In this document: positions 2,424 to 18,310 of the stretch, piece after piece
How positions within the stretch are numbered: the first letter of the stretch is position 1
Layout: each line of letters starts with the position of its first letter
Origin: Aliikangiella marina
Lineage (GTDB): Bacteria > Pseudomonadota > Gammaproteobacteria > Enterobacterales > Kangiellaceae
Direction of reading: 5' to 3'
NCBI RefSeq assembly: GCF_007004765.1
Contig: NZ_VIKR01000005.1
Span: forward strand, 372,001 to 436,000
Length of the DNA: 64,000 nt
Notes under the pieces: generated by a model
What the model was told of the DNA's origin: nothing
Database searches by the model: none
Seen by the model: only the letters and a program-made list of their open reading frames with translations
Translations under genes and position numbers: made by a program

Positions 2424-2837
2424 TCAATTTTTAATCAGTTCAGCAAACGCTTTAATAATTTTTCTGTAATCGCCTTGTCTAATTTTATTGAGTTCAATTT
2501 CACTCAGAAATGAGTTGGACACTGTTTTTGGGTCGACATAACCCATTTCCCAGTCGTTATAGCTTCTTTGTTCTAGTTCCGTATAGCTCACTAATTTGAT
2601 ATCGTAATGCCTTGCATCATGACAGATAGACTGAAATAACGGGTTGATAGCATTTGAGCACCCCTCAATGAGCTGCATAAACTGCTGGTTGTAATAAACT
2701 AAAACTCCCGTTATTCCAAGCTCTTTATTCTTTGCATATGCGCCCTTTAATATTTCTTGCACGTCGTGTTCGTCGAGCGTTGAAATTGAGCGGCTTGTGT
2801 AAACCAATTCAACCAGATGATCTTTAGAGTGAGTCAT
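2424..2837 (-). CDS. BLUF-domain blue-light photoreceptor
   Basis: The 137-residue protein is almost entirely one BLUF (FAD-binding blue-light) domain. The flavin-pocket residues all sit at a constant offset of 8 from those of AppA: Tyr13 (Y21), Asn37 (N45), Gln55 in FMQLIEG (Q63), Trp96 in DWEMGY (W104) and Met98 (M106). The photocycle residues are therefore complete. No output domain is fused; about 35 residues of helix follow the fold. I chose ATG 2837 over the upstream frame start at 2855 because AGGAGG (2845-2850) lies seven bases before it. The gene overlaps the 3' end of cheR by 14 bases, which implies translational coupling and membership of the che operon. Short BLUF proteins act by binding partners; the partner here is unknown, with the che proteins as first candidates. 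Confidence 0.9.
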   Translation of the reverse strand: MTHSKDHLVELVYTSRSISTLDEHDVQEILKGAYAKNKELGITGVLVYYNQQFMQLIEGCSNAINPLFQSICHDARHYDIKLVSYTELEQRSYNDWEMGYVDPKTVSNSFLSEIELNKIRQGDYRKIIKAFAELIKN

Positions 2838-3639
2838 TGGTGGGCCTCCTAGCAATAGAAGAGTTGATTAAGAAAGCAGAATCGATATGACCTCGCATTT
2901 GTTCTGTTTGGCTCACAAACAAGTGGCCGCCAGGATTGAGTTGTTGAAAAAGATTGTTGATTAAAGTTTTTTTAGTTTCTTCGTCAAAATAGATTAAAAC
3001 ATTTCGACAAAAAATGATATCAAAGGAATCTTTGAGTTTAGATGAGAGAATGTTATCCACGCTGAATTTGACATGTTCTCGTAAGTCCTTTTTTATCATG
3101 CATAGGCCTTCAGCGTCGTCTTTTCCCTTAAGCATGTACTTTTGTAAATAATTCTGAGGCACATTCTTGGCTCTTCTTTGCGAATAGAGCGCGCGCCTGG
3201 CTGTTTCAATCGTACCTTCCGCAATATCGGTGCCGATAATCGTCCAATTTGCTTTGCTACCAAAATACTCCATACACTCCATTGCGATAGAAAAAGTTTC
3301 TTCACCAGTTGAGCATGCGGCCGAGAGTATATCTAATTTCTTGCCTCTAAATTGAGGAAAAATTATTTGTTTGATAAAGTCAAAATGTTGCCCTTCTCTA
3401 AAAAAATAAGTTTCATGAGTCGTGAGAAGGTCGATAAAGTGTGCCCACTCTGGGTGGTTTTTTTTGAGCGATTCTAAATAGCTGAAGTAATCATCGATTT
3501 TACCGATATTTAGCTCTCTTAGACGACGATTGAGCCTTGATTGAACCAGCATTTGTCGATTATCACCGAGCTCTACGCCGGTCTTATCTTTTAACCATTT
3601 TCTCGCTTTGAGGTAACTTGCTTGAGAAATCTTGGTCAT
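2824..3639 (-). CDS. cheR: Chemoreceptor methyltransferase CheR
   Basis: CheR transfers methyl groups from S-adenosylmethionine to glutamates of chemoreceptors, which adapts the signalling array. The 271-residue protein has the all-alpha N-terminal domain (about 1-75), then LLTTHETYFFRE, the family's T-x-x-x-T-x-F-F-R-E element. The SAM loop is AACSTGEETFSIAM near residue 107, and IIFCRNVLIYFD near residue 210 is the CheR signature before the C-terminal strands. Length is normal. The stop of the cheW gene lies three bases upstream of the cheR start region, and the BLUF gene overlaps the cheR end. No CheB methylesterase is found in the window, so how the methylation would be reversed is not visible here. 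Confidence 0.95.
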   Translation of the reverse strand: MTKISQASYLKARKWLKDKTGVELGDNRQMLVQSRLNRRLRELNIGKIDDYFSYLESLKKNHPEWAHFIDLLTTHETYFFREGQHFDFIKQIIFPQFRGKKLDILSAACSTGEETFSIAMECMEYFGSKANWTIIGTDIAEGTIETARRALYSQRRAKNVPQNYLQKYMLKGKDDAEGLCMIKKDLREHVKFSVDNILSSKLKDSFDIIFCRNVLIYFDEETKKTLINNLFQQLNPGGHLFVSQTEQMRGHIDSAFLINSSIARRPTNDSL

Positions 3640-3642
3640 AAG

Positions 3643-4155
3643 TTAGGCTGACGCTTGGGCTTCTTCGTCATCTTTTAGGGACTCGAGCAACTCGATTAAT
3701 TGCTGGAGGTCGAGTAACTTGTCGACATTGAGAATAAGATAATCATCACCATCAATTCGAGTCATACCTTCAATGAGTTCAGCTGCAATACTATGACCAA
3801 ATTTAGGAGGAGGGGCGACTGATTCATGCTCGATCTCCAAAAAATCACTCACTTCATCGATGATAAGACCAACAGTAACGTTATCATCTTCGCTATGGCA
3901 TTCGGTGACTACAATACAAGTTTTCTCAGTAATCTCGATGTCTTTATCGATCACCAATCGTTTCGCCAAATCGATCACGGGAATGTATTTACCTCTGAGG
4001 TTCAGTACGCCATGGACGACTTCGGGAATTGTCGGTACCTTAGTGACCGGTTGATAGCGAAGAATTTCAGATATCACATCGATGGCAAGTAAATAATAGT
4101 CGCCAGCCAATGAGAATTTGAGTAACTTCATCTTCGTCTTAGTCTCTTCAGACAT
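3643..4155 (-). CDS. cheW: Chemotaxis coupling protein CheW
   Basis: CheW couples chemoreceptors to the CheA kinase in cytoplasmic arrays. The 170-residue protein is a single CheW domain: FSLAGDYYLLAIDVISEILR at the start, then VHGVLNLRGKYIPVIDL (the conserved N-L-R-G-x-x-x-P-V-I-D-L element), then GLIIDEVSDFLEI. The C-terminus is an acidic, Ala-rich tail (ESLKDDEEAQASA). It lies two bases from the receptor gene and three bases from cheR, so the three are surely co-transcribed. Confidence 0.95.
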   Translation of the reverse strand: MSEETKTKMKLLKFSLAGDYYLLAIDVISEILRYQPVTKVPTIPEVVHGVLNLRGKYIPVIDLAKRLVIDKDIEITEKTCIVVTECHSEDDNVTVGLIIDEVSDFLEIEHESVAPPPKFGHSIAAELIEGMTRIDGDDYLILNVDKLLDLQQLIELLESLKDDEEAQASA

Positions 4156-4157
4156 GA

Positions 4158-6170
4158 TTAAAACTCCTCAAAAGATGACTCATCCCATTCATCGCCATCA
4201 ATATCAGGCTCGGCATTCCGTTTTGAGTTTTTACTCGATGAAGGACTCGAGTGTATTTGAGGTTTAACGATTTTTATATTGCTAATGGAACTGCTCACAG
4301 TGTCTTCGCCAGTATTAAAAAACTCGACCGCGGTGTAAAGCTCGCGAGCTCTCTCGGTCAAGTTCTCACTGGTCGCAGCAAGTTCTTCACTCATTGCGGC
4401 ATTTGACTGGGTGGCAGAATCCATATGTTGAACGGCTTCTTTAATTTCATTGATACCAACCGCCTGTTCTGATGAAGCTTGTGAGATTGATTGCACAAGT
4501 TCAGCGGTTTCCTCGATTTCAGGTACCATGTTGCCAAGTAGATGACCGGATTCCTCGGCGATCTCTCGACAACGTTTGGCAAGCTCATTGATTTCACCTG
4601 CAGACTCTCTACTAGACGCTGCTAATGCCCCGACTTCATCGGCAACAACCGTAAAGCCTTTACCATGTTCACCAGCTCTTGCTGCTTCGATAGATGCGTT
4701 TAAGGCGAGAATTTTAGTTTGATAGGCGATGTCTTCAATCAGCGAAACCTTTTTAGTGATTGCACGCATCGCTTCAACAGTTTCCATTACCGCGCTACTG
4801 GTTTCGGAGGCGTTTTTCGCCGCTGAAGTCGCTATTGCTAGCGTTTTATTCGCACTTTCAGCATTACCTTGGACCGCAGCACTTAACTCTTCCAATGCTG
4901 CCGCCGATTCTTCTAGGTTTGCCGCTTGTTCAGTCACTGAAGAACTTAAACTCATAGATGCATCACTAATTTCTGGTGCAGCCTGGGCTACGTCGGATGT
5001 ATTCGATTTAACGCCTCTGATAATATTCAGTAAATCTTGGCGATAAGAATCTATATATTCTGAAATGTCACCAAATTCGTCTTCAGAGTTTTTCTTAAAT
5101 TCAATATCAAGATGACCTTCACTCAAAGACTTCAGTGTTTTGCTCACGTTACTAACGCTTTGTCTTACTTGTTCTACTACGGTGTAAGTAATGAAAATGG
5201 TTGCAAATAGCGCTGCCAAAGTACCTATTACGGTCCAGATTAAAATGTTCTTTAAACTTGATAAGTTTGTCGTATTATATTCTCTGGATTCGTTCCCTAA
5301 ACTAATTTCTTTGTTTCTTTTTAAGTCGATTACTTTTGTCGCCGCGCCAAACCAGCCTGGGGAATCGACACCAAATCCGCTATCTTTTTCAGTAGCGATA
5401 GCGCGCATAGATTGAACTTCTCCATAAGCAGAGTTTGATTCTATATCAACGATGTCTCCCATTGAGTCTTTACCAAGGTACAATTTCATAATTGACCAAT
5501 AGGTTTCGGATTCTGCATTGAGTTTAATAAAACGGCTTTTTTGTGGTCCTTTAAATTCATCCTGGGCAAAAACGCCGCTCATCAAACCCCGCTCTAAGCC
5601 TGCTTTTTCTTTGCTTAGGGTGACGTTCCACAATGCATTGGCGCCATTAGCTGTGATTCGAGACGGCGCGTGAGAAACTGCGTAGGCATTAATGGTTAGG
5701 ATTTTTTCGATAATAGCCGTATAGGCTGCAAGAGAAGTACTGACATTGTATTGAAATGCATCAACATTTGATCGAACGTTATTCACTTCTGACAAGCCTG
5801 TAATCACGTTTTCAATGAGCGTTCGCGTTTCCTCACGAAGTGCATCTTTTTCACTTTCGAAATCAGCTTTGAAAGCGGTAATCATATCGTTGACTTTAAT
5901 CCGCTGCGCTGGAAGCTCTTGCTGAAATTTTTGTCCATTAGAGCCAATAAAGCTTGCGGTCATGCCTCGTTCTTTTTGCATGTCATGAATGATACTGAGT
6001 CCAGAAATACCAATCTCTGACACCGCGCTAAACTCAGAATAATCTTGATAAGCATCGTAGCTTTCAATCACTCGTTCAACCGCTAACCAAAGTAGAATCA
6101 ACACCGGTAAAGCAATCAGGTAAATTAACTTTCTTTTTACTGGTTGATTGGCTATGAATTGTCTCAGCAT
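4158..6170 (-). CDS. Methyl-accepting chemotaxis protein with NIT sensor domain
   Basis: The 670-residue receptor has TM1 (about 13-33), a periplasmic helical NIT-type domain (PF08376, nitrate/nitrite-sensing-like; [21 protein letters not shown] region, then QRIKVNDM), TM2 (about 308-330), HAMP and a cytoplasmic signalling hairpin. The hairpin tip reads [20 protein letters not shown] followed by [17 protein letters not shown], the universal MCP signature. The last five residues, SFEEF, fit the x-aromatic-x-x-aromatic CheR-docking pentapeptide (NWETF in E. coli receptors), behind a long flexible Ser/Lys/Asp-rich linker. This makes it the likely methylation substrate of the adjacent CheR. Ligand specificity cannot be told from sequence; many NIT domains do not bind nitrate. 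It lies 12 bases after cheA. Confidence 0.93.
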
Positions 6171-6182
6171 TTTTGCTTTCCT

Positions 6183-8522
6183 CTATAACTCGGAATTACT
6201 TTCACTTTTAAAATTGGCAGACCGCATCAATAACTGATGAATGTCGAGAACAAATCCTAAATCACCGGAAGACAGCTTAATAATGCCCGAGAAGTGATTG
6301 GATTGTTTTAAAATGGGATCAAGTGGCTTAACCACAGTTTCGATTTCGCCTTGCAGTTGATCGGCAAGCAAAGCTATCGGCCCGTGCTGGCTAAATACGA
6401 TAAGAGCCTCGTGTTCTTGGGTTCGGCTATTCAAATGAAGTTGTTTATCAATCCTGATTAAGGGAATATACTCGCCTCTCAGTAGCAAACAGTCTTGATC
6501 TTGAACCAGCGCATTGGAGAACTCATCTTTGCGGATACACTCAAGCACTTGATCCATTTGTACGATAAGGGTCGCGTCGCCCATCCTAAAGCTAAAGCCA
6601 TTAAGAATTGCAGTCGTGAGTGGCAAGCGAATATCGAGAGTGGTACCTTGACCTTCTTTGGAGTCGATAATGACTTCACCGCCGATTTGATTGATATTTT
6701 TACGGACAACGTCCATACCAACTCCGCGGCCCGATAAATCAGTAACTTTTTCTGCCGTGGAAAGACCGGCATGGAATATTAGTTGAAAAATGGCGCGATC
6801 GGAGAGCTCATCAGTCGCTCTAACAAGGCCGCGACTCAATGCTTTTTCAAGAATTTTTTCTTTGTTTAAACCTTTGCCGTCATCGCGAACTTTTAAAGAG
6901 ACGCCAGAACCTAGATACTGTGCAGAAATTGTAATTTTGCCTTTCTCGGGTTTACCCGCGGCGATTCTATCTTGAGGCGCTTCTATTCCATGGTCACAAC
7001 TATTGCGAATAATATGAGTGAGCGGGTCTACGATTTTTTCAACCGTTACTCGATCAAGTTCGGTGTGTCCGCCGATAATATCCATTTCGATTTGCTTGCC
7101 AGTGGTTCGTGCCGCTTCTCTAACTACGCGATGAAAACGACTGAGGGTATTGCCGAGCGGAACCAGTCTCAAGGCAAGCGCAGTATCTCTCAAATCATTA
7201 AGGCCTTTAGTGAGCTCTTTGACAGCTTGTGCCATTTCTTCCCACGAGTTGTGTTCTAAAGCGGCATTGAGCTGGACTTTTTGAGAAATTAGCTCACCAA
7301 CATCATCAACCAGTTGATCGAGCTTCAGTGAATTAACTTTAATGAGTTGACCAACCTCAGCTGGTTTTTTCTTCGCTGTTGTGGCGGATTGATTTGCTGG
7401 GGACTCAGTTACCGCATTTGGGATTGGTTGATTAGACGTTGGCTCGGAAAGCGCTGGGTTCTCATTTAATACGGCAGCATCACTGGCGATAATTTTGCCT
7501 TCGACACCGGCAGAGAAGCTTAGTAACTCTTCAACATCGTCTTCAGTAAACTTGGGTGATGCAGACACGGTGACGGCTAAATTTAACTGCAGTGGATTGA
7601 GTTTGCTAAATTCGGGTCCGAAATACTCCAACTCGATCGCACGAATCGTTTTCGATTCTTCAATTTCTTTTAAAAGCGGTTCCATTCTGAAACCAAAATT
7701 TAAGGCTTCTTTTTCGATCTCCATCAAGAGATCATTGGATTGGCCAGGTGCTTTTCCGTCATTTTCCGCACTGGATATAATCTTACCTTCGACGCCTGCA
7801 GAGAAACTCAGTAGCTCTTCAACGTCTTCTTCGGTAAACCCTGGTGACGCAGATACCGAGACTGACAAGTCCATTTCTAAAGGGTTGAAGTGCTCAAATT
7901 TTGGGCCTGAATAGTCGAGATGAATACTATTGATTGTTTTAGTATCTTCAATTTCTTTAAGCAGCGGTTCCATTCTAAACCCAAAATGGAGAGCTTCTTT
8001 TTCGATTTCCATTAACAAAGTATTAGCGTCATCGCTGACTGAGGTATTACTGACAGAGGTATCACTGCTTTGCGCGGTGTCAAAATCATTCGTCTGTGAA
8101 CTAGCCGCCGTTTCGGTTTCGCTCGAGGTCGGGATAGCGCCACCATCGAGATAAGCTTGTAAAATATCAATGATCGGAGCGGCAGCAGCAATCGGCTCTA
8201 CCGCACCAGTGTTTAACTGTTGCAAATACTGTTCGGTGAAATCTTTGGCATCGAAGAATGTGTCCAGAAGTTCATCGGTGATTTCTACAGTTCCTTTGCG
8301 AGCCAAGTCTAAAACCGATTCGGCGATATGCACCAGATCCACCAAAGGCTGTGCGTCAAACATGCCCGCGCCGCCTTTGATCGAGTGGATTGCTCGGAAA
8401 CTCGTATTAATTAATTCATCATCGCGACTACCGTTTGACATCTCAACAAGAGAATCTTCAAATATTTGAAGGTTGTCTTCTGATTCAGAGATGAAAGCTG
8501 GTAGAAAGTCCGATAAATCCAT
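6183..8522 (-). CDS. cheA: Chemotaxis histidine kinase CheA with tandemly duplicated internal domain
   Basis: The 779-residue kinase has an HPt domain with phospho-acceptor His46 in FRAIHSIKGGAG, and a dimerisation region around 390-455. The ATPase domain shows N-box HIIRNSCDHGIE, G1 VRDDGKGL and G2 LSGRGVGMDVV, followed by a CheW-like regulatory domain from about 640. All catalytic motifs look intact. Between HPt and dimerisation lie two copies of an 83-residue module (168-250 and 264-346). They are about three-quarters identical by eye and both begin LLMEIEKEAL and end LSFSAGVEGKII. The module resembles the small alpha/beta domain repeated in other large CheA proteins. No receiver domain is fused and no cheY is in the window, so the phosphate target is not visible. 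It sits 12 bases from both neighbours in the operon. Confidence 0.95.
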   Translation of the reverse strand: MDLSDFLPAFISESEDNLQIFEDSLVEMSNGSRDDELINTSFRAIHSIKGGAGMFDAQPLVDLVHIAESVLDLARKGTVEITDELLDTFFDAKDFTEQYLQQLNTGAVEPIAAAAPIIDILQAYLDGGAIPTSSETETAASSQTNDFDTAQSSDTSVSNTSVSDDANTLLMEIEKEALHFGFRMEPLLKEIEDTKTINSIHLDYSGPKFEHFNPLEMDLSVSVSASPGFTEEDVEELLSFSAGVEGKIISSAENDGKAPGQSNDLLMEIEKEALNFGFRMEPLLKEIEESKTIRAIELEYFGPEFSKLNPLQLNLAVTVSASPKFTEDDVEELLSFSAGVEGKIIASDAAVLNENPALSEPTSNQPIPNAVTESPANQSATTAKKKPAEVGQLIKVNSLKLDQLVDDVGELISQKVQLNAALEHNSWEEMAQAVKELTKGLNDLRDTALALRLVPLGNTLSRFHRVVREAARTTGKQIEMDIIGGHTELDRVTVEKIVDPLTHIIRNSCDHGIEAPQDRIAAGKPEKGKITISAQYLGSGVSLKVRDDGKGLNKEKILEKALSRGLVRATDELSDRAIFQLIFHAGLSTAEKVTDLSGRGVGMDVVRKNINQIGGEVIIDSKEGQGTTLDIRLPLTTAILNGFSFRMGDATLIVQMDQVLECIRKDEFSNALVQDQDCLLLRGEYIPLIRIDKQLHLNSRTQEHEALIVFSQHGPIALLADQLQGEIETVVKPLDPILKQSNHFSGIIKLSSGDLGFVLDIHQLLMRSANFKSESNSEL

Positions 8523-8534
8523 TGAGAATGCTCG

Positions 8535-8774
8535 CTAGGCTAAGTATTTTTCTAAGCGATAAAGTTTTAAATATTCTGTTAATCCGTCTGATGGTTCGGC
8601 AAACGTAAATGACTTGCCCGTTTTTTCGAGCGCAAGCAGTAACTGCACGAATGAAATATCAAACTTTTCCACATCCTTGGCATTCATCACTAAAATCTCT
8701 TCTTCCATTAATTTGCTGATATTCGCGTGTATCGTTTCGATAGACTCGACGGTGCAATTTTTTGGCAGCTTCAT
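8535..8774 (-). CDS. STAS-domain protein, first gene of the che operon
   Basis: The 79-residue protein consists of one STAS (anti-sigma-antagonist-like) domain: TVESIETIHANISKLM, a short strand ILVMNAKDVEKFD, then ISFVQLLLALEKTGKSFTFAEP and a C-terminal helix. The Ser in KFDIS occupies the place of the phosphorylatable Ser of SpoIIAA-like proteins. ATG at 8774 was chosen over a TTG 30 bases upstream because AGGGA precedes it by five bases and the shorter form matches the domain. STAS genes open several known gammaproteobacterial chemosensory clusters. Its role there is poorly understood; binding of CheA or a regulator is inference. Confidence 0.8.
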   Translation of the reverse strand: MKLPKNCTVESIETIHANISKLMEEEILVMNAKDVEKFDISFVQLLLALEKTGKSFTFAEPSDGLTEYLKLYRLEKYLA

Positions 8775-9054
8775 ACGGATCCCTGGGTTGTGCAAACCTA
8801 TCAATCAAGCGTCGGGCGCTCTGGTTAGGTCGAATAGAGTAACTACTCGTTATTCAGTGTAGTACGGAAGTAGAGAATACGCAGAGTAAACTTTTACAAA
8901 ATTTAGACACAGAACAGTTGCCCTAAGCCTATTTGGCCCGTACGCAGAAACATTAACCATTCCGTTAGATTCTTGTTTTACAAAGTTTCGATCCCTCAGC
9001 CGAATCGAAACTGGCTTTAAGTTAACTGCGTAATGACTAATCACAGGAGTTGTT

Positions 9055-9303
9055 ATGAAATCAGAAGCGCAAATTTCGCGAATTATTGAAATGGCTTGGG
9101 AAGATCGCACCCCATTCGAAGCAATCGAGAAAAACTATGGACTCAATGAAGCGCAGGTTATCAAACTGATGCGTCGGGAGTTGCGCTTGAGTAGTTTTAA
9201 GCTTTGGCGCAAACGGGTCTCAGGTCGCAAGACTAAGCATGTTAACCTTCGGTCGCCTGCTGTGAGTCGGGGTTATTGCGCCACGCAGTACAAGCAGCGA
9301 TAG
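9055..9303 (+). CDS. TIGR03643/DUF2805 family small protein
   Basis: This is an 82-residue basic protein. The core, IIEMAWEDRTPFEAIEKNYG followed by LNEAQVIKLMRRELRLSSFKLWRKRV and GRKTKH, matches the TIGR03643 (DUF2805) family as I know it. The helical pattern with Ala-Ile-x-x-x-Tyr-Gly-Leu-x-Glu suggests a helix-turn-helix-like fold, but the function is unknown. ATG 9055 is well supported by AGGAG at 9043-9047. My recollection that relatives often lie near photolyase genes cannot be checked here; a blue-light BLUF gene is about 6 kb away. The COQ7-like gene starts 13 bases downstream, so the two are likely co-transcribed. Confidence 0.8.
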   Translation: MKSEAQISRIIEMAWEDRTPFEAIEKNYGLNEAQVIKLMRRELRLSSFKLWRKRVSGRKTKHVNLRSPAVSRGYCATQYKQR

Positions 9304-9316
9304 GCAATGATCGAAA

Positions 9317-9871
9317 ATGCGTAAATCTACTGCTTCAACTGCCACTCATTGGCAACAAATTCCCTCGGTGATTCAGAATGAACTCAGGAGCAGTCATGCG
9401 GGAGAACTCGGCGCTGTATGGATTTATCGTGGGATATTGCTGGCGAGTCAATTTAATCAGGTGCGCGCATTTGCTCGTCAGCATTTAGCGACAGAGAAAA
9501 CCCATCTTGCGCTGTTTGAAGAGTCGATTCATCTTTATCGGGGAAGTTTATTGTTGCCGGTATGGATAGTCGCGGGTTTTCTTACTGGTTTTATACCGGC
9601 ACTATTTGGCAGAAAGGCGGTTTTCAAAACCATAGAGACCGTCGAATCATTTGTCGAGAAACATTATCAACATCAGATTCAGTTGTTGAGCCAGTTTCCT
9701 CATCTGCGTGCTCTGCAGGGAATGTTGGAGTTTTGTCAGCAGGATGAGATTGCCCACAAGCAAGAAGCGAGTGAATTAGCCCAGGAGTCGTCAGGGCTGA
9801 TATTAAGTACTTGGTGTTGGTTGGTGAGTCACGGCTCCAAGATTGCTGTGAGCATTGCTAAACGAGTCTAG
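9317..9871 (+). CDS. coq7: Demethoxyubiquinone hydroxylase (COQ7) family protein
   Basis: The 184-residue protein has the carboxylate-bridged di-iron pattern of COQ7/Cat5: SSHAGELGAVWIYRG, then TEKTHLALFEE, ETVESFVEKHY, and finally QQDEIAHKQEA, which supply the two E-x-x-H pairs and bridging Glu residues. COQ7 hydroxylates demethoxyubiquinone in ubiquinone synthesis and associates with the membrane through hydrophobic helices; the stretch LLLPVWIVAGFLTGFIPALF fits that. At 184 residues it is slightly shorter than many bacterial forms. The ATG at 9317 has a poor ribosome site, consistent with coupling to the preceding TIGR03643 gene. Confidence 0.85.
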   Translation: MRKSTASTATHWQQIPSVIQNELRSSHAGELGAVWIYRGILLASQFNQVRAFARQHLATEKTHLALFEESIHLYRGSLLLPVWIVAGFLTGFIPALFGRKAVFKTIETVESFVEKHYQHQIQLLSQFPHLRALQGMLEFCQQDEIAHKQEASELAQESSGLILSTWCWLVSHGSKIAVSIAKRV

Positions 9872-9920
9872 TCGTAAAGTTTCTCTTAGAGCGATGATTG
9901 GGATTACTGAGGCTCGGCGA

Positions 9921-10697
9921 TTAGCTTTCTGCGAAGGCCCTCTCGATTACATAGTCACCTTGTTCGCCTAAACGAGGGCTGATGTTAAATCCTCTTTGAT
10001 TCAAGATAGTTTGCATGTCTTCAAGCAGCCCAGGACTACCACAAAGCATAAATCGATCAGTGTCTGGATTAAGCTCATCTAATTGAATATCTCGAACAAA
10101 TTTGCCGGATTCAATCAGGTCGGTTACACGTCCTGTGTTTTTGAATTCTTCTCGCGTTACGCAAGGGTAGTAAATGAGCTTTTGCTTAACATTTTCACCA
10201 ATGTAAGGATTGTCTGGAAGTTCATTCTCAATGAGTTCTCGATACGCTAATTCAGAAACATTTCGCACACCGTGAAAGAGAATGATATTGTCAAATTTGT
10301 CATAAATCTCGAGGTCAAAAATGATGCTCATAAACGGTGCTAAGCCAGTACCCGTGGCGATCAGGTATAAGTTTTTTCCAGGTTTGAGGTCATCAGCAAC
10401 CAAGGTACCTGTGGGCTTACGACTGACGTAGATTTCATCACCAGGCTGGATATGTTGTAGACGAGAAGTTAGCTCCCCATTAGGAACTTTAATGCTTAAA
10501 AATTCCAAGTGTTCTTCATAATTTGAACTAGCGATACTGTAGGCGCGTAAAATCGGGCGTTTTTCGCCAGGCAAACCGAGTAAGACGAACTCGCCGTTTC
10601 TGAATCGTAAACTGGTGTCGCGGGTGGTTCTGAAACTGAATAACTTGTCATTCCAGTGATGAACACTAAGAACGCTTTCAAGGCCAATCTTTGCCAT
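9921..10697 (-). CDS. fpr: Ferredoxin--NADP(+) reductase
   Basis: The 258-residue FAD protein moves electrons between NADPH and ferredoxin or flavodoxin. FAD-binding RAYSIASSNYEEHLEF (R-x-Y-S) precedes KVPNGELTSRL; the NADP site is IATGTGLAPFMSI, and FMLCGSPGLLEDM is the nucleotide-binding C-terminal element. It ends VIERAFAES, the aromatic-containing tail typical of the Azotobacter/Pseudomonas Fpr subclass. Length is normal. It stands alone on the minus strand, convergent with the COQ7-like gene. Fpr enzymes of this class often serve oxidative-stress defence; nothing in the upstream region proves that here. Confidence 0.93.
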   Translation of the reverse strand: MAKIGLESVLSVHHWNDKLFSFRTTRDTSLRFRNGEFVLLGLPGEKRPILRAYSIASSNYEEHLEFLSIKVPNGELTSRLQHIQPGDEIYVSRKPTGTLVADDLKPGKNLYLIATGTGLAPFMSIIFDLEIYDKFDNIILFHGVRNVSELAYRELIENELPDNPYIGENVKQKLIYYPCVTREEFKNTGRVTDLIESGKFVRDIQLDELNPDTDRFMLCGSPGLLEDMQTILNQRGFNISPRLGEQGDYVIERAFAES

Positions 10698-10846
10698 AAA
10701 CTTCTAAATATCAATAAAGGTGAATCACTTAATGCGAAGGATTCTCATTTAAGTTAGCGCTGAAGTCAAGTGAAACTGCTGCGCTATAAGGCCTATCTTT
10801 GGGCTTAATAGCGCGGGTCTATGAAGGTCTGCTTAGCCGGAATTGA

Positions 10847-11881
10847 TTAGTTACCCAAGGACACCAGATCCTCTCGGCTTTTTGGTTGGTAGTTATCAAT
10901 CTGATCATAAAAACAAAAGGGTAACGAATTTTCTTTGGCGACGTACATGGCTTGATCGGCAAGTTCTAAGATTTCGGCATCGTCATCAGATTGGCTTATC
11001 CGGGCTTGATTAAAATTCGCTTTGTCCTTTAAATCATCAGGGTAGACACTGATGCCAATTGAAGCAGATAGATTAATTTCAAGATTCTCCGCTATCTGAA
11101 TAGGTGGAGATAATCGCTTGAGAATTCTATTAGCAATGGATTCAAGCATGTAGCGAGCACTTACTCTCGGCATAAGAACAACGAACTCATCACCGCCGAT
11201 CCTTGCTGCCGTATCTTCGGTTCGAACGGCACGTGCAATTCTTTCGGCGACTTCAACTAACAAGTTATCGCCGGCTCGGTGGCCATATTGATCGTTAATG
11301 GCTTTGAATTTATTCAAGTCGATAAATAGCAGGGCGACTTTTGAGTCGTGTCGTTTGCTCATTTCTAAAGACTGCTTCAAGTTGGCAGAAAAGTAATGTC
11401 GATTGGGTAGTTGAGTTAAAGCGTCGTAATTGGCCAGTTCGCTCAATGCTTGCTGTTGCTGTTTGAGCTCAGTCATGTCGGTCATAGCACTCACGTAGTG
11501 GGTGATGTTGTTGGCCTTGTCTTGGATCGCAGTAATCGTCTCCCAAACATAGAACAAGCCACCTTGGCGGTGCCGATAGCAAATCTCGCCTTGCCAAAAA
11601 CCATCTTGATGGAGAACTTTCCAAATTCGATTGTAGAAAGATTCATCGTGTTCACCAGAGCGAAGTAAAAAAGGCTTACGACCAACGATTTCAGCCTCTT
11701 TGAATCCCGAAATACGACAAAAGGCAGGGTTGACTTGTAAGATTGTGTTGTCGGCATCGGTAACGACTATCCCGTTGCCGGCATGCTGGATAGCGATGCT
11801 AGAGAGATCGTTAGTCGGCTCATTTGTCGGGTGATCAATATCCATCACATAATTTTGTCTGCTTGCAGCACTGGTATTCAT
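10847..11881 (-). CDS. PAS-GGDEF diguanylate cyclase
   Basis: The 344-residue cytosolic protein has a PAS/PAC domain (IVVTDADNTILQVNPAFCRISG onward, about 25-140) and a GGDEF domain with intact GGDEF at about 229-233. It should therefore make cyclic di-GMP. The inhibitory I-site RTED lies five residues before the motif, so product inhibition is expected. The start was set at ATG 11881, where AAGGGAG lies about five bases upstream, instead of a TTG at 11911. It is transcribed away from the efflux operon and shares the 446-base upstream region with it. The PAS ligand is unknown. Confidence 0.92.
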   Translation of the reverse strand: MNTSAASRQNYVMDIDHPTNEPTNDLSSIAIQHAGNGIVVTDADNTILQVNPAFCRISGFKEAEIVGRKPFLLRSGEHDESFYNRIWKVLHQDGFWQGEICYRHRQGGLFYVWETITAIQDKANNITHYVSAMTDMTELKQQQQALSELANYDALTQLPNRHYFSANLKQSLEMSKRHDSKVALLFIDLNKFKAINDQYGHRAGDNLLVEVAERIARAVRTEDTAARIGGDEFVVLMPRVSARYMLESIANRILKRLSPPIQIAENLEINLSASIGISVYPDDLKDKANFNQARISQSDDDAEILELADQAMYVAKENSLPFCFYDQIDNYQPKSREDLVSLGN

Positions 11882-12040
11882 GACAACTCCCTTTGGTCTA
11901 GGTGTATTCAATTCGATTATTTTTGCTTAAAGACTGACTACTTGTTCACTATTGTTCGAAGTCTAAGTTTAGCGAGCAAATTTGCTGAAACCGCTGGTTG
12001 GGTCACAAAATAAGCAGAACAAATATCGGCCTAATTAATT

Positions 12041-12056
12041 TGGGAACTGGTTCCCA
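12041..12056. promoter_or_regulatory. Palindrome 1 (possible enhancer-binding site)
   Basis: TGGGAACTGGTTCCCA is a perfect inverted repeat: arms TGGGAAC and GTTCCCA around TG. It uses the same TGGGA/TCCCA half-sites as the two palindromes nearer the promoter but in inverted order. It lies about 230 bases upstream of the -24 element and could be a distal or unrelated operator. Confidence 0.45.
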
Positions 12057-12160
12057 TTAAGTTGAGATTTTTTATTCTATTGAGCTGCGGTTGGCTGAAT
12101 GTCTGCGATTAGCGTTCCCGGTTTTATCGAAGAAATATCGAATGCATTTTTCCTAAAATG

Positions 12161-12178
12161 AATCCCAATAATGGGATT
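12161..12178. promoter_or_regulatory. Palindrome 2 (probable enhancer-binding site)
   Basis: AATCCCA-ATAA-TGGGATT is a perfect 7-base inverted repeat with a 4-base spacer. Its centre lies 33 bases (three helical turns) from the centre of palindrome 3, so two activator dimers would bind on the same face. The position, about 130 bases before the predicted start of transcription, is typical for NtrC-type activators. Confidence 0.6.
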
Positions 12179-12194
12179 TTATTCGCAATGAATT

Positions 12195-12210
12195 TTCCCA
12201 TAAATGGGAA
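12195..12210. promoter_or_regulatory. Palindrome 3 (probable enhancer-binding site)
   Basis: TTCCCA-TAAA-TGGGAA is a perfect 6-base inverted repeat with a 4-base spacer, the same architecture as palindrome 2. It lies about 97 bases upstream of the predicted transcription start of the efflux operon. The likely ligand is the sigma-54 activator encoded at 16946-18310 (inference from gene neighbourhood). Confidence 0.6.
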
Positions 12211-12272
12211 GGTACGAGCGCTTTTTAATACTGAATAATGAAATTTTTAGTTAATTCAATAAGTTAAAAATC

Positions 12273-12288
12273 TGGCATGAGCTCTGCA
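12273..12288 (+). promoter_or_regulatory. Sigma-54 (-24/-12) promoter of the efflux operon
   Basis: TGGCATG-AGCT-CTGCA fits the sigma-54 consensus TGGCACG-N4-TTGCA with the invariant GG and GC at the correct 12-base pitch and only two mismatches. Transcription should start near 12299, about 29 bases before the TTG start of the adaptor gene. A cognate activator is encoded in the same cluster, which strengthens the call. Confidence 0.82.
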
Positions 12289-12327
12289 CTAGTAATAGTG
12301 AATTAATTTTTTCATGGAGCTATTCAA

Positions 12328-13584
12328 TTGGATATCGCAAGAACTCCTCCAAAGACATCTAACATCAAACGCTATTTACTGATTGGCCTGGCGGTTTTAT
12401 CGAGTGTTATTGCAATGCGTTATTTGTGGGTATTCGGTCAGGCTGATTTCGTTGCTAATTCTGATGCGATGGTATTTAGCGAAGTGAAGCGCGGAGACTT
12501 TAAAGTTTCCGTGAGAGGCAATGGGGTATTGGTCCCAGCAAATATTCAATGGTTATCGACCAACGTTGAAGCACGAGTCGAGCGGCTGGTTGTGAAGCCG
12601 GGCAAGATGGTTACCCAGGGAGAGCTTATTGTTGAATTAAGCAATCCGCAATTACTACAACAACTAGAAGAAACCATGTGGGAGCTTGAAGCGCTGGAAG
12701 CTGATGCACAAGCGCAACAAGTTGCCCAAGAATCGGCTTTGCTCGACCAAAAGTCAGCAATGTTAAACGCGCAGTTAGATTTTGAAAGTAGTCAACTTAA
12801 ACAAAAAGCACAGGCGAAATTGTATCAGCAAAAGTCTGGCGCGGTTTCGCGGATCGATTATGAAAATACACTGATGGAAACAAAACAGCTAAAGCAGCGG
12901 TGGCAAATTCAGCAAGAACGCTACGCGAAGATGCAAGAAAACTTAGACGCCCAAAACAATGCTCGCCAAGCGCGATTAAATAAAATGAAAAAAACTTTAG
13001 AGCGGATCCAACATCAAGTTGATGGTCTCAATGTTCGCGCGACAATGAATAGTGTCGTCCAAGAAATTCCGCTTGAGCCAGGACAACAGGTTCCGGTGGG
13101 TAGTAACATCGCAAAACTGGCTCAATTGGATTCACTAATTGCGGAGCTTCAAGTTCCTGAATTGCAAATTCGCGATGTTGCCATTGGACAAAAAGTATTA
13201 ATCGATACGCGTAATAGCCATATTGAAGGTTTTGTTTCGCGAGTTGATCCAGCAGTTATCAATGGCAATGTTCAAGTGGATGTGGAGTTTTCAATTAGTC
13301 TACCAGCGGAAGCACGACCTGATTTAACTGTTGACGGTGAAATTAGAGTCGCCGAGATAGCGAATACACTTCATGTTAGTCGCCCACTGTTTGCCCAAAG
13401 TGAGAGCCAAACGGGTGTTTACCGGCTTACTGATGATGGCCAGTTTGCTGAACGCGTCATCGTTAAATTAGGTAAAGGCTCGGTTAACCAAATCCAGATT
13501 ATCGACGGTCTAACCGCGGGTGATCGCATTATTATTTCCGACTCGACTAGTTGGGAAACCTATCAAAGAATTCGTATTAACTAA
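12328..13584 (+). CDS. Periplasmic adaptor (HlyD/MacA-like) of an ABC efflux pump
   Basis: The 418-residue membrane fusion protein has one N-terminal anchor helix (about 15-35) and a split lipoyl/barrel-sandwich fold (GNGVLVPANIQWLSTNVEARVERL and later VRATMNSVVQEIPLEPGQQV). A long Gln-rich coiled-coil hairpin lies between (about 110-230), followed by beta-barrel and membrane-proximal domains. Such adaptors link an inner-membrane ABC transporter to an outer-membrane channel; no TolC gene is in the window. The start is TTG at 12328 with GGAG about nine bases upstream; no in-frame ATG is better. It is the first gene after the sigma-54 promoter. Confidence 0.9.
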   Translation: MDIARTPPKTSNIKRYLLIGLAVLSSVIAMRYLWVFGQADFVANSDAMVFSEVKRGDFKVSVRGNGVLVPANIQWLSTNVEARVERLVVKPGKMVTQGELIVELSNPQLLQQLEETMWELEALEADAQAQQVAQESALLDQKSAMLNAQLDFESSQLKQKAQAKLYQQKSGAVSRIDYENTLMETKQLKQRWQIQQERYAKMQENLDAQNNARQARLNKMKKTLERIQHQVDGLNVRATMNSVVQEIPLEPGQQVPVGSNIAKLAQLDSLIAELQVPELQIRDVAIGQKVLIDTRNSHIEGFVSRVDPAVINGNVQVDVEFSISLPAEARPDLTVDGEIRVAEIANTLHVSRPLFAQSESQTGVYRLTDDGQFAERVIVKLGKGSVNQIQIIDGLTAGDRIIISDSTSWETYQRIRIN

Positions 13585-13607
13585 TTTTATACTTGAAGGA
13601 CTTAATC

Positions 13608-14351
13608 ATGAGTAATGAACTAATTGTGTTAAACCAAATACAGAAAATATTTTATACCGAAGAAGTAGAGACTCATGCGTTGAGTAACATCAGCTTAACA
13701 ATAAAAGAAGGCGAGTATGTATCAATTTCTGGACCTTCCGGTTGTGGAAAATCAACACTTTTATCGCTCTTAGGGCTGCTGGATACTTCAACCGGTGGCG
13801 AATACAAGTTGGCGGGGCATGATGTCTCTAATATCTCTAAGGAAGAGAGGGCAAGGATTCGCAATAAGGAAATTGGTTTTATTTTTCAGTCTTTCAATTT
13901 GATTAGTGATTTGGATGTTGAAGAGAACGTCGAGTTGCCGCTTACTTACCGCAAAGATCTTTCTAAATCACAAAGACAGGAGATGGTAAAAGATGCATTA
14001 CAAAAAGTTGATATGTCACATCGCGGTAAGCATTTTCCTTCTCAACTATCAGGTGGTCAGCAACAAAGAGTTGCCGTAGCAAGAGCAATTGCCGGTAATC
14101 CTTCAATCATTTTAGCGGATGAACCTACCGGCAACCTCGACTCAAAAAACGCACAAGCGGTTATGGCACTATTAGATAAATTACATTCGGAAGGCGCGAC
14201 GATTTGTATGGTCACTCATGATCCTCGCTCGGCAGAGAGAGCAGAACGAAATATTGATGTGCTAGATGGACAAGTGATTGCCGATAAAAAAGTTTTACCG
14301 AATCACTCAGAAAGTACATCAATAACTGCTGAAGAAGCGGTTGCGGTTTAG
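13608..14351 (+). CDS. ABC transporter ATP-binding protein (MacB/LolD type)
   Basis: The 247-residue ATPase shows Walker A SGPSGCGKSTLL, Q-loop in GFIFQSFNLI, signature LSGGQQQRVAVARAIA, Walker B IILADEPTGNLD and the His switch in MVTHD. The LSGGQQQRVA and GNLDS elements place it in the MacB/LolD/FtsE group, which powers lipoprotein, peptide or drug efflux rather than import. The ATG at 13608 follows AAGGA by seven bases and is preferred to a TTG 15 bases upstream. It lies 23 bases after the adaptor gene, and its stop lies 10 bases before the permease start, so the genes form an operon. Confidence 0.93.
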   Translation: MSNELIVLNQIQKIFYTEEVETHALSNISLTIKEGEYVSISGPSGCGKSTLLSLLGLLDTSTGGEYKLAGHDVSNISKEERARIRNKEIGFIFQSFNLISDLDVEENVELPLTYRKDLSKSQRQEMVKDALQKVDMSHRGKHFPSQLSGGQQQRVAVARAIAGNPSIILADEPTGNLDSKNAQAVMALLDKLHSEGATICMVTHDPRSAERAERNIDVLDGQVIADKKVLPNHSESTSITAEEAVAV

Positions 14352-16945: not shown

Positions 16946-18310
16946 ATGAATCACACTATCCTTATCGTCGACGATGATGTCGGAATTCTTTCAGCATTGC
17001 AGATGTTGCTGAAAACTCAAGGTTTCAAAGTTGTTAGTGCGGAGTCCCCAAAGGAGGCACTCGCAGCATTTAGTCGGCAAAGTTTTGATTTAATCGTTAT
17101 GGATCTCAACTACTCGATGGACACGACTTCTGGGGATGAAGGGATACAACTGATTGAAAAGATCCGTCAATCTGACGATCTGGTGCCGATTGTTGTCATG
17201 ACGGGTTGGGGAACTATCGAATTAGCTGTCAACACAATGCAAAAAGGCGCTAATGATTTTATTCAAAAGCCTTGGAAAAATGAGCGGCTGCTGGCGATTA
17301 TCAACAATCAGCTTAAGCTTGCCACTAGCCAGAAACAGTCGCAAAAATTGTCCGCTCACAATCAAATCTTGCAAGCCGAAATTGATACTGCGGAAGATCT
17401 TATTGCGCAGTCATCAGCGATGCAACGAGTGATGCAAATTGTTAATCAAGTAGCTCAAAGCGATATCAATGTTTTGTTAACGGGTGAAAATGGTACCGGA
17501 AAGAGTTTACTTGCGCGTTATATTCACAGGATCTCTAAGCGAAAGGAAGCTCCACAAGTTTCGGTAAATATGGGCGCGGTTGCCGAGTCGTTATTTGAAA
17601 GTGAAATGTTCGGTCATGTTAAAGGCGCATTCACCGATGCAAAATCAACTCGTATTGGTCGGTTCGAACTTGCCGACAGCGGCACATTATTTTTGGATGA
17701 AATAGCGAATACGCCGGTTTCCCAACAAGGCAAACTATTAAGGGTATTAGAAGAGCGACAGTTTGAAAAAGTGGGGGCCAGTAGAACGCAAACAGTTGAT
17801 GTAAGAATTATTAGTGCGACTAATGCCAATTTAAATGAGGCGGTTGAGCTAGGGCTTTTTAGAAAAGATTTGTTGTATCGATTAAACACGATTGAAATTG
17901 AAATTCCGCCGCTCCGTGAAAGGAAAGCAGATATTTTGCCTTTGGCTCAGAGGTTTCTTGCACAAGTTGCCGCAAAGTATGGCCAGTCACCAGCAACTAT
18001 CGATGAAGCTGCAACACAAGCATTGCTTGATTATAATTGGCCCGGTAATGTGAGGGAGTTATCCCACGTACTAGAAAGAGCACATATATTATCAATCGAT
18101 GACTTGATAGGCGTTAAAGCACTGGGATTAGTTGAATTACCAGCTGGGTCGAGTGAGCCTGACGACGAGGAAGTTGATTTGCGTCCGCTTGAGATGCTTG
18201 AGTCAGAAATTATTCGGACACGATTGGAGTACTTTGAGGGGAATGCAGTCGAAGCAGCAAAATCTTTGGGATTGAGCCGCAGCGCTTTTTATCGTAGATT
18301 GGAAAAATAA
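16946..18310 (+). CDS. Sigma-54-dependent response regulator (NtrC family)
   Basis: The 454-residue activator has a receiver domain (MNHTILIVDDDVG; acidic pair near the start; phospho-acceptor about Asp53 in VMDLNYS). Its AAA+ domain has Walker A GENGTGKS near 180 and GAFTDA at about 227-232, the sigma-54 contact loop (canonically GAFTGA). Walker B is GTLFLDEIAN, and a Fis-type helix-turn-helix closes the protein (NAVEAAKSLGLSRSAFYRRL). I chose ATG 16946 because upstream starts at 16898/16901 lie inside the terminator-like hairpin; no good ribosome site is visible for any of them. The likely target is the -24/-12 promoter at 12273 with palindromes 1-3. The partner kinase is the next gene. Confidence 0.92.
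   Translation: MNHTILIVDDDVGILSALQMLLKTQGFKVVSAESPKEALAAFSRQSFDLIVMDLNYSMDTTSGDEGIQLIEKIRQSDDLVPIVVMTGWGTIELAVNTMQKGANDFIQKPWKNERLLAIINNQLKLATSQKQSQKLSAHNQILQAEIDTAEDLIAQSSAMQRVMQIVNQVAQSDINVLLTGENGTGKSLLARYIHRISKRKEAPQVSVNMGAVAESLFESEMFGHVKGAFTDAKSTRIGRFELADSGTLFLDEIANTPVSQQGKLLRVLEERQFEKVGASRTQTVDVRIISATNANLNEAVELGLFRKDLLYRLNTIEIEIPPLRERKADILPLAQRFLAQVAAKYGQSPATIDEAATQALLDYNWPGNVRELSHVLERAHILSIDDLIGVKALGLVELPAGSSEPDDEEVDLRPLEMLESEIIRTRLEYFEGNAVEAAKSLGLSRSAFYRRLEK

Follow-up and report, generated by a model that had tools for sequence, protein, structure and literature searches.

Why should a gene for a blue-light receptor close a chemosensory operon that carries no cheY, cheB or cheD, and on what could such a receptor act there? 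The question is raised by a locus in the 64-kb stretch of DNA that we analysed (the window). Open reading frames and Pfam domains place six genes head to tail on the minus strand, in the order STAS, cheA, a NIT-type methyl-accepting receptor (MCP), cheW, cheR and BLUF (Table 1). An earlier note on this DNA had described a contiguous, one-stranded set with gaps of 2-12 nt, an overlap at the BLUF end and no cheY, cheB or cheD, and the description holds: the spacing in gene order is 12, 12, 2, 3 and -14 nt, and tblastn with Shewanella CheY, CheB and CheD queries found none of these genes beside the operon. The sole match to these queries in the 64 kb is of CheY type, at 16946-17302 (25% identity), inside an ORF of 470 aa. 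The BLUF ATG lies within cheR, 7 nt downstream of AGGAGG, an arrangement that would suit coupled translation of the two genes, and we infer a single mRNA. Pattern scans of the operon for promoters and terminators did no better than on shuffled sequence.

Table 1 Features of the operon in the window (positions of the whole stretch)
Feature	Position	Strand	Basis
STAS-domain protein, first gene, CheS-like position	8535-8774	-	ATG at 8774 chosen by sequence
STAS, possible alternative TTG start at 8804	8535-8804	-	Pfam STAS_2 E 1.7e-8 on the TTG-start ORF
CheA kinase, 779 aa	6183-8522	-	Pfam Hpt, H-kinase_dim, HATPase_c, CheW; alignment with Algicola, G351, Shewanella
CheA middle module copy 1, residues 169-250	7773-8018	-	62/82 residues identical to copy 2
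CheA middle module copy 2, residues 265-346, possible P2-like docking domain	7485-7730	-	AlphaFold fragment model
NIT-type methyl-accepting receptor (MCP), 670 aa	4158-6170	-	Pfam NIT E 1e-41, MCPsignal E 3e-29
MCP C-terminal tail WDESSFEEF, candidate CheR tether	4161-4187	-	Similar tails in the other two operons
CheW adaptor	3643-4155	-	Pfam CheW E 8e-32
CheR methyltransferase	2824-3639	-	Pfam CheR E 1e-51 and CheR_N
Shine-Dalgarno-like AGGAGG for BLUF, within cheR	2845-2850	-	Sequence
Short BLUF blue-light receptor, 137 aa, ATG start	2424-2837	-	PF04940 E 5e-28, scored on the ORF from TTG at 2855

The same six-gene order was found in a second genome of the Kangiellaceae (G351) and in Algicola sagamiensis DSM 14643 (L099), again without a cheY, cheB or cheD being found next to the operon, and BLUF directly follows cheR in all three (-14, 0 and +8 nt). 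The synteny search proposed in the earlier note thus added two further lineages, and the recent insertion into a single genome that it had named as grounds for refutation is ruled out by a gene order shared among three. In best BLAST segments, the Algicola proteins are 62% (CheA), 54% (MCP), 64% (CheW), 51% (CheR), 43% (BLUF) and 36% (STAS) identical to those of the window, and the G351 proteins 40, 42, 56, 48, 41 and 28%, respectively. BLUF is not the best-kept part of the operon, since its window-Algicola identity is below that of the neighbouring Che proteins (51-64%). None of the six frames is interrupted in the window or in Algicola. The G351 CheA is split into two frames (L095:7515-7567), possibly by misassembly of this metagenome-derived genome.

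The operon, known in three genomes, is real: rare, conserved and tightly spaced. Among 394 genomes of the order, the top foreign BLUF match was that of G351, located in the same operon. A CheR search of the family gave a match at E <= 1e-30 in 31 of 40 genomes, with E < 1e-80 in the window genome and G351 only (next 3e-46). In the family of Algicola (395 genomes), CheR matched at E <= 1e-50 in 35, Algicola at 9e-94 and the next best at 2e-60 (42%). A plasmid search with CheR returned 232 records, all below 60% identity.

The gene that follows cheR, taken as the next one on the same strand within 800 nt, sets these operons apart. Genome contigs scanned with an alignment of two CheR sequences yielded 42 loci, in which CheR is followed by CheD/CheB in 35, by BLUF in two (Algicola L099 and G351 L100), by CheA in two and by no recognised gene in three; because the scan rested on exact matches to two peptide patterns, operon-bearing species may be more numerous than it shows. 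At the 30 CheR loci listed for the Algicola family, CheD/CheB comes next in 29 and BLUF in one. For the window family, CheD/CheB comes next in 11 of the 30 loci listed and BLUF in two, and the 17 CheRs with no recognised next gene appear to belong to other che classes. The three sets overlap in the operon loci, which hold the window once and G351 and Algicola twice each. Given the 35 of 42 and 29 of 30, BLUF holds the CheD-CheB slot within its cluster class. The order STAS-CheA-MCP-CheW-CheR on one strand is that of a STAS-type cluster, in which CheD and/or CheB would follow CheR, but BLUF stands there in all three operons. Shewanella sp. SR44-3 (L103) provides the comparison: its CheY-STAS-CheA-MCP-CheW-CheR-CheD-CheB cluster shares the central order, with 40% (CheA), 42% (CheR) and 40% (CheW) identity to the window in best segments and a related MCP tail, whereas the operon is without CheY, CheD and CheB, has BLUF in their slot and carries a NIT receptor. 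In the window and the G351 flanks, no cheY was found upstream of STAS, its place in Shewanella and others; on the Algicola contig only 652 nt precede STAS, and an upstream cheY could lie on another contig there.

How common is it for BLUF to lie near che genes? BLUF matches occurred in 76 of 394, 46 of 369 and 114 of 388 genomes, the window genome being counted each time. Neighbours within 1.5 kb on each side were read at the 92 BLUF loci among the matches listed (at most 30 per search, plus earlier ones) from the order, class, phylum and Algicola-genus searches, the last covering Algicola alone, with duplicates included and the window locus left out. Of these loci, those of the G351 and Algicola lineages were the only ones with cheR or cheW found next to BLUF, although more distant che genes could escape such a reading. 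Any che-type match was present at 9 of the 92, and we claim no general enrichment of BLUF beside che genes. Three of the nine are the operon loci (L008, L185 and L186). The others are a duplicate pair with a stand-alone receiver (L016/L191), a duplicate pair with an MCP (L026/L210), a receiver-like match (L040) and a BLUF convergent to a CheW-MCP-CheR-CheB-CheY row (L212). BLUF thus lies near che genes elsewhere too, and at the loci listed outside the three operon lineages it is never within the che row. A BLUF convergent to such a row is seen in G1241, of the same phylum (L217:9781-15684). In G011, of the same order, BLUF (L219:6603-7022, minus strand) is divergent from a plus-strand che row (7669-13742) that holds an MCP, two frames resembling STAS and receiver domains on visual inspection, CheY, CheA and CheW. 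The window genome has two other BLUFs, with no che gene alongside.

The earlier note had placed all flavin-pocket residues of the operon BLUF at a constant offset from AppA, and the alignment agrees. Y13, N37, Q55, W96 and M98 are all present, each 8 below its AppA counterpart (Y21, N45, Q63, W104 and M106), and none of the five varies across the alignment of 69 BLUF rows (69 of 69), which were chosen by similarity and length. BlrB and Slr1694/PixD were also aligned. K36 occupies the position of PixD N31 and AppA H44, where Lys occurs in 16 of the 69 rows, including all three operon rows. BLUF is the only Pfam domain above cut-off in the 137-aa protein, which has no effector domain, and its structural model (pLDDT 85, six sequences) has the BLUF fold with helices C-terminal after residue 103 and Slr1694 (PixD) as best structural match (TM 0.8 at 23% identity). 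With its pocket Tyr, Asn, Gln, Trp and Met and its short helical C-terminus, the protein is a predicted short BLUF photoreceptor of the PixD/BlsA kind. To our knowledge, signal relay by short BLUF proteins without an effector domain is understood in few cases. A short BLUF tied to taxis is PixD, of the PixD-PixE system of Synechocystis, whose structures come nearest to the window BLUF model; however, PixD works with a PATAN-CheY protein (as given in the available text of PMC5812497), and the operon showed no gene for a partner of this kind.

CheA retains its Hpt histidine and ATPase motifs in the alignment and is without a receiver domain by Pfam, and CheR matches the solved CheR structures 1bc5/1af7 (E 2e-42). 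The NIT part of the MCP matches the nitrate regulatory protein 4akk (E 3e-5), with QxERG and a second ER kept in the alignment. Because of this relationship to a solved nitrate regulatory protein, the ligand is probably nitrate or nitrite; we infer both the ligand and the methylation sites of the MCP from its sequence. One of the other two operon MCPs ends in WDESDFEEF. Among 32 other MCP-type frames from the 42-locus CheR contig scan, 18 end in F-x-R/K-F/Y (for example DESDFVRF) and 11 in TFF; the operon tails carry Glu where other cluster tails have Arg or Lys. The conserved aromatic tail would fit continued CheR docking, for which the E. coli receptor tail NWETF is a parallel.

Where, then, would the output of such an array go? 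The earlier note had suggested a partner encoded elsewhere or the STAS protein itself, and the second of these now seems less likely. At the position after the conserved STAS Asp, which corresponds to the SpoIIAA site, the three operons have I, V or F, where four canonical clusters have A, S, T or G; this argues against a STAS phospho-switch, without being proof. CheS of Sinorhizobium meliloti, another one-domain STAS protein whose gene lies in a che cluster, provides a precedent for a CheA-binding helper instead. CheS acts with two CheYs, whereas no cheY was found in the operon, and the review that describes it also speculates on sigma-factor control (available text of PMC12654446). Possible partners encoded elsewhere do exist. 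By tblastn, contig C2 of the window genome shows the gene row CheY-CheA-CheW-CheW-MCP-CheR-CheD-CheB (928152-936868) and, at 955965-960519, the set CheY...CheA-CheB. There are three CheB domains in this genome (two on C2 and one on C3, in a 1032-aa frame), three each in G351 and Algicola, and one CheD as well as flagellins in each of the three. Genes of the other che clusters could supply output and demethylation to the operon array.

A light input to the NIT-receptor array is the most economical reading of the operon, and one that we are inclined to accept. The six genes would build a dedicated STAS/CheA/MCP/CheW/CheR-class array that takes two inputs, the NIT receptor and a cytoplasmic PixD-like BLUF, and with its output in trans, an arrangement that, on balance, we would expect. 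Blue light would alter BLUF, which might then bind a component of the array. As BLUF stands in the CheD-CheB place beside cheR, it would most likely act on the adaptation branch, through CheR or its hold on the receptor tail, a proposal that we make tentatively and with clearly less confidence than that of a light input as such. Light would in this case shift receptor methylation and so change CheA activity, phosphate would pass to CheY and CheB would demethylate, both coming from other che clusters. A model for a small adaptor that controls CheR is MapZ of Pseudomonas aeruginosa, which binds CheR and lowers methylation; unlike BLUF, this PilZ adaptor binds c-di-GMP, not light (available text of PMC6370697). 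One could also imagine, though we consider it unlikely, that BLUF took over the adaptation role of CheD-CheB, so that blue light, not phosphorylated CheB, sets the methylation of the nitrate-type receptor via CheR. If true, the memory of the array would be written by light. By tying a short BLUF to one receptor, one kinase and one methyltransferase, the operon in any case narrows the candidate partners to a small, closed set, and it raises the question of how a methyltransferase functions without a neighbouring methylesterase.

It is also conceivable, if improbable, that BLUF feeds light directly into the array through CheA, CheW or the receptor tip and not through methylation. The photosensor Ppr binds CheW through its kinase domain (available text of PMC2993699), but BLUF adjoins cheR, not cheA or cheW, in all three operons, although adjacency by itself cannot decide. 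We likewise give little credence to the view that BLUF is merely co-expressed and has its role outside the array, in gene expression for instance, where the short BLUF BlsA is reported to act through Fur. The closest published case bears on this view. According to the available text of PMC8805636, the BLUF gene I6N98_15960 of Spongiibacter nanhainus CSC3.9 is directly followed downstream by a chemotaxis cluster and motAB; blue light raised che and motAB expression, an effect absent when BLUF was deleted, and the response of motility to blue light was BLUF-dependent. The authors suggest a route that leads from BLUF to CheA, CheW, CheY and CheR. An effect on che gene expression would need no contact with the array. 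Against mere co-expression in our operon stands the keeping of BLUF beside cheR in three lineages without local cheY, cheB or cheD. That the operon is a decaying che cluster with BLUF as a passenger is very improbable: no local cheY, cheB or cheD was found and the G351 CheA frame is broken in the assembly, but the six frames are open in the window and Algicola, the Hpt histidine, ATPase motifs and flavin residues are kept and the identical partial gene set recurs three times.

The S. nanhainus report also qualifies the novelty of light input to a che operon. The earlier note knew of no BLUF at the 3' end of such an operon, and in the open-access PMC literature we found no report of BLUF inside a cheA-cheW-cheR operon; the compact form without cheY, cheB and cheD is unreported in the literature searched. 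However, a BLUF gene that adjoins che genes and mediates a blue-light effect on motility had already been published. Compared by description, the S. nanhainus BLUF lies upstream of a large cluster said to contain all essential chemotaxis components and motAB, whereas that of the window comes after cheR in a compact operon (available text of PMC8805636).

In a tree of 67 CheR rows, those of the three operons make up a single clade (SH-aLRT 99), within which the pairing of window and Algicola has an SH-aLRT of only 8. The three operon BLUFs group among 69 rows of 90-260 aa with a support of 93/72, in 92% of 200 bootstrap trees and below the program's strong-support mark; here window and Algicola pair at 85/77. 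By identity, these two are closest in five of five proteins, although G351 shares the family of the window, which fits a transfer of the whole operon or quicker change in G351, the CheR tree being undecided.

Some further observations concern the genes and their surroundings. CheA of the window genome carries its middle module twice (7485-8018), that of Algicola and G351 only once. In an AlphaFold model of a 242-aa CheA fragment (mean pLDDT 60), blocks 111-190, which hold copy 2, reach 76-92, and copy 1 is poorly modelled. Copy 2 models as strand-helix-strand-strand-helix-strand, the fold of P2 docking domains; Foldseek with the middle-module model, poor for copy 1, gave no PDB match at E <= 0.001. 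In Algicola, a second BLUF gene (L099:6663-7085, minus strand) is convergent to the operon BLUF at a distance of 22 nt and falls outside the operon group in the BLUF tree. In the window, a convergent plus-strand gene (1840-2412), 11 nt from the BLUF end of the operon, codes for a THAP4-like heme-binding domain and is presumably nitrobindin kin.
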